In this document: positions 35,847 to 40,102 of the stretch, piece by piece
How positions within the stretch are numbered: the first letter of the stretch is position 1
Layout of the letters: the number at the start of each line of letters is the position of its first letter
Source of the DNA: Verrucomicrobiia bacterium
Lineage (GTDB): Bacteria > Verrucomicrobiota > Verrucomicrobiia > Limisphaerales > DSYF01
Direction of reading: 5' to 3'
DNA: 64,000 nt
Assembly (NCBI GenBank): GCA_035765895.1
Contig: DASTWL010000007.1
Span: 1-64,000 of the forward strand
Translations under genes and position numbers: made by a program
Notes under the pieces: model-generated
Told to the model about the DNA's origin: nothing
Seen by the model: the letters and a program-made list of their open reading frames with translations, nothing else
Database searches by the model: none

Positions 35847-35961
35847 GGCGACACAGTGCCACAGTTCCGGTGAACTTGAGAAAGACCATGTTTCTTGGCT
35901 CAGCATAACCAAAGAACATGCTTAATTGCAGAAGCCGCCAGAGCTACGGGGAACCAAATTC

Positions 35962-36051
35962 AAAGGGCTGCAAGCCCGGCAGATGATAGCCCAGGGCAAC
36001 GCCCTGGGTTCATCGTTAAAAACGATTTCAAGTCCTGTAAGGGCGACAGAA
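35962..36051 (+). repeat. Left long inverted repeat of the helicase unit
   Basis: About 90 bp. Read inward it runs CAAAGGGCTGCAAGCCC, CAGATGATAGCC, CAGGGCAACGCCCTGGG, TCATCGTT and CCTGTAAGGGCGACAG. The same order and nearly the same bases are found inverted at 40015-40102 (roughly 80% match). It contains two small palindromes of its own. Ends 43 bp before the ATG of the large gene. Confidence 0.85.
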
Positions 36052-36093
36052 ATGTGGCTCGCAGAATCGGCTGGAGTTGGCAACAATGGCGGC

Positions 36094-39000
36094 ATGAGCC
36101 AGACCGGGAAACGAAGCCGGGAGAAGAAGGCCCTTGTGCCGCTCGCCAAATCGCATCCGCAGCTCGCGGCTCAGTGGCATCCCACCAAAAACGGCAACGT
36201 CTCGCCGGATGATGTTCAGGCGAGCAACACATCGCCTATTTGGTGGGTTTGTCCAAAAGGACACGAGTGGCAAGCGCGTCCGTGGCATCGAACCAACCAA
36301 GGCAATGCATGTCCATTCTGCGCGGGTAAGAAGTTTCTACCCGAAGATTCCTTGGCTGGGCGTTATCCCGCCATCGCTGCGGAGTTGCATCCGACTAAGA
36401 ACGGCAATACGACGCCGGATAAGTTGTTTCATCGCAGCACGAAATACTTTTGGTGGCGTTGTGCGAAGAATCCTCTGCACGAATGGAGGACAACCGTTGT
36501 CCGGCGCACTGGTCAAGGAAGCGGCTGTCCTTACTGTTCGGGTCGGCAATTGACTTCAGAGAACTCATTCGGCAGTCGCTATCCGAAACTTTCTGAGCAA
36601 TGGCATCTGACAAAAAACGGCGAGCACAAGCCCACAGATTTTCCTGCCGCCAGCAAATTCGACGCTTGGTGGCAATGTCAGAAGGTTGAGGCGCATTCGT
36701 GGAAATCAAAAATTCGTTCGCGGGCTCAACATCCTGAACTTGGTTGTCCCATCTGCTCCCGCATCGCGAGCAATTCGCGCGAACGAAAGCCGCTTTCTGA
36801 AACCCATCCTGATCTTTTGAGGGAATGGCATCCGGCCAAAAACGTAGGCGTGACGCCGAGAGATGTGCATGAGGGTTCGTCTCGGAAGGTATGGTGGCGC
36901 TGTTTGGCTAATCCATCGCACGAATGGGAGTGCAGCGTAGGAAACCGTGCCCGACGTGGGAACGGTTGTCCGTTTTGCGCGGGACAATACGCTGACGGAA
37001 CGAACTCTCTTGCCGCTCTGTTTCCACAAATTGCTGCCGAGTGGCATCCGACAAAGAATGGCGAACGCAAGCCGGACGCTGTCACGCCGGGCAGTGCGCG
37101 AAAAGTTTGGTGGAAGTGCTCGAAAAATCCAGAACACGAATGGGAAGCTCGGATACAGCCTCGAGTTAAGCGAGGCAATGGGTGTCCGTATTGTAGCTCG
37201 TGGACACTTTCACCAGAGCGGTCTCTTGCTGTGGTCTCGCCCGAATTAGCCGCCGAATGGCATCCGACGAAAAACGAACATCTAACGCCGCGTGATGTGA
37301 CAGTGGGATCTGCGCGCAAATTTTGGTGGAAATGCTCGCGTAATCCAGCGCACGAGTGGAGAACAAGTCCGAAGAACCGGAGCGTGCTCAAGAACGGTTG
37401 CCCGATTTGCAAAGTCGGCTGGACGATACCCGCGATTCGCGGCTTCGTTGATTCGCTCAAGCATCACCTCTCCACCTTCACGCCAGCCGAACTTTACGTG
37501 TTGTTTCAGCAAAACGGCTTGCTTGCTGGAGTCCGCAAGAGCCAAGCGTTTCTCGACGCGCTTGCGACAGGCCGATTCCCCTTCGACGAGATTGAGAAGT
37601 TCTGCAAGGGCGAGAAGTCGTTGGTGGATTCGTTCCTTGCGGATTCGTCGCTGACGCTGGAGGCGTTGGCGGAGCAGCAGCCGGGCGCGGCGAAGGAAGA
37701 GGAGTTGGGCGTCGTCGGCGAGGCGCAGGAGGAGAGCGCGGAGTTGCCGACGGCGGAAACAGAGAACGTGCTCAAGTCGTTGCAGTCGGCGGTGGTCGTG
37801 TCGGCAGATCAGGAGGCGGTCGAGTTTCTCGTGGCGTCGGCGCTGGCGAAAATTTGGAAGCACGCTTTCCGCGACGAGTCCGCCGCCATGGCGCAGGCGC
37901 GGGATTTCAAAGGCGACGCTTACGCGGAGCGGGTGCGGACGGAATTTCTTGCCGAGTATGAGCGCGTGAAGGCGCTGGAGATTCCGGCGGGTTATTCGTT
38001 CAAGGTGGAGGGCAGGCCGGCGCTGCCGAATCTCATGCAGCGGCTGGTGGCGTCGCGGATTCAGCACAAGCGGCGCGAGGGAAACTGGTCGGGCACGGGC
38101 GCGGGCAAGACGCTTTCGGCGGTCCTGGCAAGCCGCGTGGTCGGCGCGAAGCTGACGGTGATTTGTTGTCCGAACAGCGTGGTTGAGGGTTGGAAGGCGG
38201 CGATTTTGAACGCATTCCCGGACAGTCTGGTGGCGACGAAGACGCTCGCGCCGGATTGGGCAGCGATTGCGGGCGATGAGACGGGTTTCGGCAAAGCGGC
38301 GGCGGCGCATCGTTACGTGGTGTTGAATTACGAGGCGTTTCAGCAGGAGGATTCGGAGAAGAAGGTGCGGAAGTTCGCGAAGCAGGAGGCTGCGGGTTTC
38401 GTGGTGGTGGATGAGATTCATTTCACGAAGCAGCGGACGGCGGAGAATCTTTCCAAGCGCAAGAAGCTGGTGACGGCGTTGATCAGCTTGGCCGCCGCGA
38501 AGAATCCGCGGTTGTGCGTGCTGGGGATGTCGGCGACGCCGGTGATCAACAATTTGCAGGAGGGCAAGAGTCTGGTGGAGATGGTGTCGGGGCTGGCGCA
38601 CGACGACCTGAACACGCGCCCGACGGTGGCGCATTGCATGAAGCTGCATCAGCGGCTGGTGACGCTGGGCACGCGGTGGCTGCCGGATTACCAGATCGTG
38701 TGCGACGTGCAGACGCCGGAGGTGGATTGCGGCGAGGCCATTGAGGAGATCAAGGCACTCGGGCGCAACGGGTCCCCGCTGGCGTTGGAACAGATTCTCA
38801 CGCGCGTGCGGCTGCCGATCATCCGGCAAAGCATTCGGCCCAAGACGCTGCTTTACACGCATTACATTCAGGACATTGATTCGGCGCTCTACAAGGCGCT
38901 GGTCGAGGACGGCTGGCGCGTGGGGTTTTTCACGGGCGATGACAAGAGCGGGCTGGAGGGATTTCTGCACGGCGACGTGGATGTGCTGATTGGTTCGAGC

Positions 39001-40011
39001 GCCATCGGGACGGGCGTGGATGGACTTCAGGAAGTTTGCCAGCGGCTCGTCATCAATGTGCTGCCGTGGACGAACGCGGAGTTCGAGCAACTCAAGGGGC
39101 GCATCTTCCGGCAAGGCCAGCACGCGGACAAGGTGACGGTCATCGTGCCGATTACTTACGCGGACGTGAACGGGCAGCGGTGGTCGTGGTGCGGCTCGAA
39201 GATGCGGCGGCTGCATTTCAAGAAATCCATTGCGGACGCGGCGGTGGATGGCGTCGTGCCAGAAGGCCACTTGCGCACGTCGGCTCAGGCGTATCAGGAC
39301 GTGATGGGCTGGCTGGATCGGTTGACGACTGGGCGCGTGGAAGTGATCGAGCGTGCGCGCATCGTCGTGCCGTTGCCGCAGGATGATGGCGAGGAAGTTG
39401 AGCGGCGCGCGCGGAAGTATGGCGATTTCTCAGCGATGACCCGCACATGGAATCAGAGTCGCAGCACGACGACGCACGCGCGGCTGCGGGAGAATCCCGA
39501 GGAGTGGGCGCAGTATCACACACTATATCGTGAGGCGCGGAAGGATTGGTCAGTCGTGCCGTTTGAGGAGTTCATCCGCTGGGCGAAGCAGCGGAGTGAT
39601 TACGTCATCGGTGACTTCGGGTGCGGCGAAGCGAAAGTGGCGGAAGCGCTCGCGGACCGGCACACGGTTCATAGCTTTGATTACGTGGCCGCGAACGATG
39701 AGGTGGTCGCGTGTGACATGACGAAGACGCCGCTGGAGGATGGGACGCTCGACGTTGCGTTGTTCTCGCTCTCGCTCATGGGCCCGAACTTCAAGGATTA
39801 TCTGCGCGAAGCGTGGCGTGTGCTGAAGCTGGACGGACAGTTGCATGTGTTCGAGGCCACGTCGCGTTTTTCGGATCGTGACGCGTTCGTGGCGGGATTG
39901 AAGAAGCTTGGGTTCGCGATCGTCGAGGTGCGCGATGCGTGGAAGTTCACACATATTCGGGCAATGAAGACGGAGCGTGCGCCTGAGGCTGGCGTAGAAT
40001 TGCACTTCTGA
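36094..40011 (+). CDS. Zinc-ribbon array + SNF2-type helicase + Rrp8-like methyltransferase
   Basis: 1305 residues from the ATG at 36094; earlier codons run into the inverted repeat. Residues 15-440: six repeats of about 65-70, each LAAxWHPTKNG...WWxC...HEW...GxGCPxC, like the zinc-ribbon family PF14311 (DUF4379), likely nucleic-acid binding. 440-600: helical (FTPAELYVLFQQNG) with an acidic linker. 620-1010: superfamily 2 helicase, Walker A GTGAGKT (about 669), DEIH box (about 771), SATP (about 811), GRIFRQGQ (about 1001). 1140-1290: SAM methyltransferase with IGDFGCGEAKVAEAL, VHSFDYVA, ACDMTKTPLEDGTLDVA, SLSLMGPNFKDYLREAWRVL and EATSRF, the order seen in yeast Rrp8. The ribbon part is visibly more AT-rich than the rest. 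Single gene between inverted repeats. Defence or nucleic-acid modification is inferred; no characterised protein of this architecture is known to me. Confidence 0.85.
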   Translation: MSQTGKRSREKKALVPLAKSHPQLAAQWHPTKNGNVSPDDVQASNTSPIWWVCPKGHEWQARPWHRTNQGNACPFCAGKKFLPEDSLAGRYPAIAAELHPTKNGNTTPDKLFHRSTKYFWWRCAKNPLHEWRTTVVRRTGQGSGCPYCSGRQLTSENSFGSRYPKLSEQWHLTKNGEHKPTDFPAASKFDAWWQCQKVEAHSWKSKIRSRAQHPELGCPICSRIASNSRERKPLSETHPDLLREWHPAKNVGVTPRDVHEGSSRKVWWRCLANPSHEWECSVGNRARRGNGCPFCAGQYADGTNSLAALFPQIAAEWHPTKNGERKPDAVTPGSARKVWWKCSKNPEHEWEARIQPRVKRGNGCPYCSSWTLSPERSLAVVSPELAAEWHPTKNEHLTPRDVTVGSARKFWWKCSRNPAHEWRTSPKNRSVLKNGCPICKVGWTIPAIRGFVDSLKHHLSTFTPAELYVLFQQNGLLAGVRKSQAFLDALATGRFPFDEIEKFCKGEKSLVDSFLADSSLTLEALAEQQPGAAKEEELGVVGEAQEESAELPTAETENVLKSLQSAVVVSADQEAVEFLVASALAKIWKHAFRDESAAMAQARDFKGDAYAERVRTEFLAEYERVKALEIPAGYSFKVEGRPALPNLMQRLVASRIQHKRREGNWSGTGAGKTLSAVLASRVVGAKLTVICCPNSVVEGWKAAILNAFPDSLVATKTLAPDWAAIAGDETGFGKAAAAHRYVVLNYEAFQQEDSEKKVRKFAKQEAAGFVVVDEIHFTKQRTAENLSKRKKLVTALISLAAAKNPRLCVLGMSATPVINNLQEGKSLVEMVSGLAHDDLNTRPTVAHCMKLHQRLVTLGTRWLPDYQIVCDVQTPEVDCGEAIEEIKALGRNGSPLALEQILTRVRLPIIRQSIRPKTLLYTHYIQDIDSALYKALVEDGWRVGFFTGDDKSGLEGFLHGDVDVLIGSSAIGTGVDGLQEVCQRLVINVLPWTNAEFEQLKGRIFRQGQHADKVTVIVPITYADVNGQRWSWCGSKMRRLHFKKSIADAAVDGVVPEGHLRTSAQAYQDVMGWLDRLTTGRVEVIERARIVVPLPQDDGEEVERRARKYGDFSAMTRTWNQSRSTTTHARLRENPEEWAQYHTLYREARKDWSVVPFEEFIRWAKQRSDYVIGDFGCGEAKVAEALADRHTVHSFDYVAANDEVVACDMTKTPLEDGTLDVALFSLSLMGPNFKDYLREAWRVLKLDGQLHVFEATSRFSDRDAFVAGLKKLGFAIVEVRDAWKFTHIRAMKTERAPEAGVELHF

Positions 40012-40014
40012 TTG

Positions 40015-40102
40015 TGTCGCCCTTACAGGGCTTGGAAACATTGTGGAACGATTAACCCGGGGCGTTGCCCCGGGCTATCATCTGCGGGCTTTCAGCCCTT
40101 TG
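40015..40102 (-). repeat. Right long inverted repeat of the helicase unit
   Basis: Begins 3 bp after the stop codon of the large gene with TGTCGCCCTTACAGGGCTTG and ends in GCGGGCTTTCAGCCCTTTG. In between are CGATTAACC, CGGGGCGTTGCCCCGGG and CTATCATCTG. It is the inverted counterpart of 35962-36051. No target-site duplication is obvious outside the pair. Confidence 0.85.

Follow-up and report, generated by a model that had tools for sequence, protein, structure and literature searches.

The RRP8 enzymes of yeast and human make m1A in helix 25.1 of the large-subunit rRNA, and the sole characterised members of this methyltransferase family act on rRNA (PMC6085284). Hen1–Pnkp, an RNA-repair system, mends RNA cut by ribotoxins and confers immunity to re-cutting (PMC4411300). 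The locus described here lies in the window—the whole stretch of 64,000 nucleotides of a Verrucomicrobiia bacterium that was analysed—and features an Rrp8-type methyltransferase as the C-terminal part of a protein of 1305 residues, behind an N-terminal array of six DUF4379 repeats and an SNF2-type motor. SNF2-type motors have the fold of double-stranded DNA translocases. No description of a bacterial Rrp8 fusion was found in the literature; the mention of PF05148 that was found concerns a nematode transcriptome.

The protein is encoded by a single ORF with its ATG at 36094 and its stop codon at 40009–40011. The ORF as called by the program starts at a TTG (35926) and would give 1361 residues, and the numbering of the domain search (hmmscan) is counted from this position. 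The ATG is taken as the likely start because homologues start at the equivalent ATG in the alignment and because 35961–36054 is a repeat. The genes around the fusion gene in the window resemble housekeeping genes rather than a defence island. The GC skew is approximately +0.2 across 37000–40000, within the fusion gene, and near zero or negative elsewhere in the window; this jump is in keeping with a foreign origin of the gene. The features of the locus are collected in Table 1.

Table 1. Coordinates of the fusion gene, its parts and the bounding repeats in the window
Feature	Position	Strand	Basis
Whole gene: zinc-ribbon array, SNF2-type motor and Rrp8-like methyltransferase	36094..40011	+	ORF list; homologue alignment
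Six DUF4379 repeats, exchangeable N-terminal module	36166..37413 (outer limits approximate)	+	PF14311, 6 stretches, 360 bits; C/H motifs
SNF2-type SF2 motor	37843..39348	+	ResIII and Helicase_C; fold match; invariant motifs
Rrp8-like methyltransferase domain	39373..40008	+	PF05148, 162 bits; model pLDDT 85; 2zfu Z 24.1
Repeat, left copy, ~90 nt, three small palindromes	35961..36054	+	Repeat search; profile match, E 3e-25
Repeat, right copy, inverted relative to left	40012..40102	-	Repeat search; profile match; starts directly 3' of stop codon

The C-terminal domain is strongly supported as a genuine Rrp8-type methyltransferase. An Rrp8-like domain had been proposed from the letters of the sequence, and it is borne out: The peptides on which the proposal relied are all in frame, the Methyltransf_8 profile (PF05148) matches 39457–39969 with an E value of 2e-47 (cutoff 27 bits), and human RRP8/nucleomethylin (2zfu) is the top structure. 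The domain had been placed at 39560–39985; its presence there stands, and its structural limits are slightly wider. It comprises the C-terminal ~212 residues of the protein and is not a separate gene. In a phmmer search, 2zfu is the sole PDB match with an E value below 0.1 (9e-34), and human RRP8 is 35–37% identical to the domain. The SAM motif DFGCGE at 39613 is intact and is followed by LSLMG at 39769. Structure models were built from the window and from loci of the genome and viral scans, with plasmid-derived rows left out. The AlphaFold2 model of the domain (pLDDT 85, pTM 0.84) finds 2zfu in a structure search with an E value of 5e-18 and a TM score of 0.80, and its residues 8–212 superpose on 2zfu with a Z score of 24.1 and 2.2 Å over 200 residues—the next best structures reaching a Z score of 16. 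This match includes the lead-in helices, in agreement with the Rrp8-like lead-in noticed in the original prediction. Among 40 bacterial domains, 32 columns are invariant, and by hand count 24 of the 32 are identical in human RRP8. The dN/dS ratio of 0.08–0.13 between close relatives indicates that the conserved methyltransferase is in use, under purifying selection. Placement in the generic Methyltransf_11 group was considered and rejected: This profile gives 31 bits against 162 for Methyltransf_8, all 40 of the 40 family members match Methyltransf_8, and 2zfu is the best structure by a wide margin.

The motor carries the ResIII and Helicase_C domains of Pfam (hmmscan) and features intact helicase motifs I, II, III, and VI: Walker A GTGAGKT at 38092, DEIH at 38410, SATP, and GRIFRQGQ at 39097. 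The SNF2-rel_dom profile gives 20.7 bits for the motor of the window, below its cutoff of 24.9, and the homologues L032 (25.3 bits) and L018 (28.8 bits) exceed this cutoff. The joint model of motor and methyltransferase has a pLDDT of 78 and a pTM of 0.58, so that the relative placement of the two domains is unreliable. It matches the SNF2 ATPases Mot1, Snf2, Sth1, Chd1, Ino80, ISWI, and RapA at approximately 15% identity and, separately, 2zfu. As modelled, the motor is of SNF2 type and matches double-stranded DNA translocases rather than RNA helicases.

The N-terminal module consists of six DUF4379 repeats, each with the pattern C..H-x-W..CPxC, which are probably treble-clef zinc fingers. Comparison of close relatives shows that the N-terminal array has not shared the history of the core, and the module is exchanged. 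The window and L013 share 95% amino acid identity in the motor and 51% in the array, and their synonymous divergence, 0.24 for the motor, has reached saturation for the array. The respective values for motor and array are 92% and 77% with L007 and 84% and 76% with L008. L006 shares 96% of the motor and 53% of the array with L007 but 90% and 68% with L013, to whose array its own is closest. Across lineages, INT_rpt or Sigma70_r4 takes the place of DUF4379 or precedes it: In Pseudanabaena, INT_rpt-type repeats make up the array, matched by PF14882 in L036 and recognised by eye in L032; L031 of the Chloroflexota shows this motif, again by eye; and L030 and L018 combine Sigma70_r4, a sigma-70-type HTH, with DUF4379. 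INT_rpt repeats take their name from phage integrases. Exchange of the array is the pattern expected for a recognition part that is pressed to change.

The gene lies exactly between two inverted copies of the ~90-nt hairpin repeat, the left of which ends approximately 40 nt 5' of the ATG and the right of which follows the stop codon directly. The source genome holds only four copies, and the single other pair bounds a Hen1–Pnkp RNA-repair operon. This Hen1 and Pnkp cassette spans 4241–8455 of L043 (G000:C8:66240-70455), in the window's own genome, and a further one occurs at another insertion site in G336:C155 (L046). The repeats also bound the homologue in L007, L008, and L013—not in L006. 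Repeat copies were gathered from the order by similarity to the repeat of the window, and the ORFs inside were picked mechanically. This yielded 12 neighbouring pairs in opposite orientation more than 1 kb apart, all 12 with the same polarity (left +, right −). Their cargo is the Rrp8 fusion (four pairs), Hen1–Pnkp (two), and, once each, an SPFH trio, DndB (347 bits), PDC-S41 (946 bits), PDC-S37 (640 bits), and an HA-repeat helicase, which scores 275 bits against a portion of a type IIG model; one pair holds no convincing gene. Cassettes with a repeat on one side carry, among others, GajA/GajB (673/671 bits), one more case each of PDC-S41 and PDC-S37, and additional HA-helicases. As a control, the 45 other ORFs of the window gave one weak PADLOC match. 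To our knowledge, neither the Hen1–Pnkp nor the SPFH/ADP-ribosylglycohydrolase cassette is a proven anti-phage system. The latter, at 1391–5157 of L047 (G336:C58), encodes an ADP-ribosylglycohydrolase, an SPFH/Band-7 protein, and a protein of 319 residues, which has no Pfam or PADLOC match and looks NAD-kinase-like by eye; the trio is possibly an NAD- or ADP-ribose-based conflict system. The repeats are also found singly, as tight doublets, and in cargo-free arrays. Y1 transposases occur in these genomes, but the Y1_Tnp genes of the source genome (C39, C52) lie on contigs other than those with repeats. In a comparison for an empty site with the only further genome of this genus, the DNA that flanks the cassette was split over separate contigs. 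The repeats would be what moves the cassette.

The same three-part fusion has a sporadic distribution across Verrucomicrobiota, Planctomycetota, Acidobacteriota, Cyanobacteriota, Actinomycetota, Chloroflexota, one archaeal bin, and plasmids, with full-length homologues on plasmids of Crinalium and Rhodococcus. Across 84,980 species genomes, a single scan found 36 loci, to which one contig of a viral collection is added. Complete ORFs are about 1,140–1,800 residues long and carry the methyltransferase at the C-terminus; several ORFs are truncated, broken, or run off the contig (L011, L012, L019, L024, L033, L034, L037, and others). In the phylum of the window, PF05148 is matched at an E value of 1e-15 in 1 of 288 sampled genomes. 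A free-standing bacterial Rrp8 was rejected within this sample and within 23 genomes with homologues: Each of the 23 encodes the fusion, and the extra Methyltransf_8 matches in them are a second copy in G627 and a weak one in G612 (38.6 bits). The former, of 156 residues, lies at G627:C17:2539846-2540223 in the Pseudanabaena biceps genome and is perhaps the remnant of another copy. In the methyltransferase tree, phyla are intermingled—branches with strong support require at least four changes for cyanobacteria—and the Verrucomicrobiota fall into one clade. A transfer of the Rrp8 domain between domains of life, as originally suggested, is plausible. A phage origin was rejected, as a tblastn search of 50,697 phages gave weak helicase matches and no methyltransferase; in IMG/VR, one contig matched the methyltransferase and one locus matched the helicase weakly.

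In two acidobacterial genomes (L018 and L022), the gene follows an ORF that reads as carB by 41–48 nt, and a second copy of the carB 3' end, 74–120 nt long, lies on the far side. In L018, this end is found a third time 1.1 kb further on, which suggests repeated integration at one site. Upstream of its homologue, L006 (1–1790) contains short tandem repeats in degenerate form as well as a short ORF resembling, by eye, a Cas9 N-terminal fragment (NETVWAFDLGKGSIG). No conserved neighbour genes of the homologues were found, so that the protein probably works alone. Among 88 near neighbours, some match defence models, namely PDC-S13 (9e-88), a type I S subunit, IetA, PDC-S03, and PtuB; these matches are reported per family and not per neighbour gene.

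There is about an even chance that the protein is a mobile anti-invader system encoded by a single gene, whose recognition array and double-stranded DNA motor would bring a base methyltransferase to foreign nucleic acid. The exchangeable N-terminal array—here the six DUF4379 zinc fingers—would recognise the target, the SNF2-type ATPase would engage double-stranded DNA and remodel it or track along it, and the C-terminal Rrp8-type enzyme would move a methyl group from SAM onto a base of the target nucleic acid. Judged by homology, this base would be adenine; the substrate would be DNA rather than RNA, and the role of the fusion would be immunity. An immunity protein is more probable than a ribosome enzyme because the sister cassettes carry anti-phage genes. 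Points against the anti-invader reading are that none of the PADLOC models covers most of the protein, the best partial match being ~30 bits over ~120 residues, and that no nuclease or known killing domain was detected in it; the housekeeping-like surroundings, the rRNA target of the characterised family members, the two cassettes that are not proven anti-phage systems, and the repeats without cargo also count against it. We regard as quite doubtful the more specific proposal that guidance by array and motor directs methylation to the Watson–Crick face (N1-methyladenine, the mark that Rrp8 makes in rRNA), which would block invading DNA or its transcripts without cutting, and that the Rrp8 of eukaryotes and this mobile family of prokaryotes have a common ancestry.

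The original prediction pointed to an adenine of rRNA, tRNA, or other RNA as the substrate. This part found no support, since the domain is fused to a motor with a double-stranded DNA translocase fold and to modules that are exchanged (DUF4379, INT_rpt, or sigma-HTH), which point at least equally to DNA. A corresponding role in stable RNA, in which the enzyme makes m1A in rRNA or tRNA and the motor aids access to structured RNA, is unlikely overall. The identity and near-identical predicted fold to human RRP8, the m1A that RRP8 makes in helix 25.1 of the large-subunit rRNA (PMC6085284), and the RNA-repair operon in the other cassette of the source genome speak for such a role, which might be favoured by selection if it conferred resistance to agents that target the ribosome. 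However, the motor resembles SNF2 translocases and not RNA helicases, a fixed rRNA target leaves the rapid exchange of the array unexplained, and the presence in the phylum is sporadic.

It is likewise improbable that the protein is a protective DNA methyltransferase, which would mark element or host DNA at sites specified by the array for restriction evasion or as an epigenetic mark. The occurrence on plasmids and on a viral-collection contig, a module exchange that recalls specificity swapping in restriction–modification, and the lack of a detected nuclease domain are consistent with this, but the sequence has no NPPY-type catalytic motif of known DNA amino-methyltransferases, and no partner restriction gene is conserved nearby. 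Least of all do we expect that the protein is selfish or serves transposition of the very element that the repeats bound, a reading with very little probability: The gene's exact position between the repeats in the window, L007, L008, and L013 and the integrase-derived name of the INT_rpt repeats of some homologues are set against the unrelated cargo bounded by the same repeats, the occurrence of the gene without these repeats in L006 and other phyla, and a protein in which no recombinase or transposase domain was detected.

If the anti-invader reading is true, the bacterial immune repertoire gains a system that consists of one gene and has a recognition array open to exchange, together with an immune use of a methyltransferase class whose characterised members all belong to the assembly of eukaryotic ribosomes. 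The origin of Rrp8 would then become testable, and the ~90-nt inverted repeat would be a handle for gathering candidate immunity genes in Limisphaerales-type Verrucomicrobiota.

Compared with RRP8/nucleomethylin, the bacterial domain shares the predicted methyltransferase fold including the lead-in helices and three quarters of the invariant columns, but it forms the C-terminal end of a three-part protein whose other parts are the SNF2-type motor and the exchangeable N-terminal modules. With the SNF2 ATPases Snf2, Mot1, Chd1, and RapA, the motor has in common the fold, the motifs, and the RQGQ of motif VI; it differs by its fusion to an Rrp8 domain and by the low identity to solved members. 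The defence helicase DrmD shows short partial similarity (35 bits to a model with a cutoff of 610), and membership in DISARM was rejected on this score and because there are no drmA/B/C partners beside the gene and its neighbours are not conserved. Type I restriction–modification offers an analogy only, with a motor, a methyltransferase, and a recognition part that is exchanged separately from the core, whereas the fusion is a single chain without a nuclease domain and with an unrelated methyltransferase class and unrelated recognition modules. The cassette resembles REP/RAYT and TIR elements in its short palindromic repeats, some of which flank genes (PMC3733652), and Tn7-like defence cargo in being a mobile unit with defence genes (PMC8649781). 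In contrast to GTAG-type REPs, no GTAG end is seen among the copies listed in the repeat alignment, and unlike all of these elements, the ~90-nt three-palindrome repeat encloses single genes of defence type, and no transposase lies between its copies.
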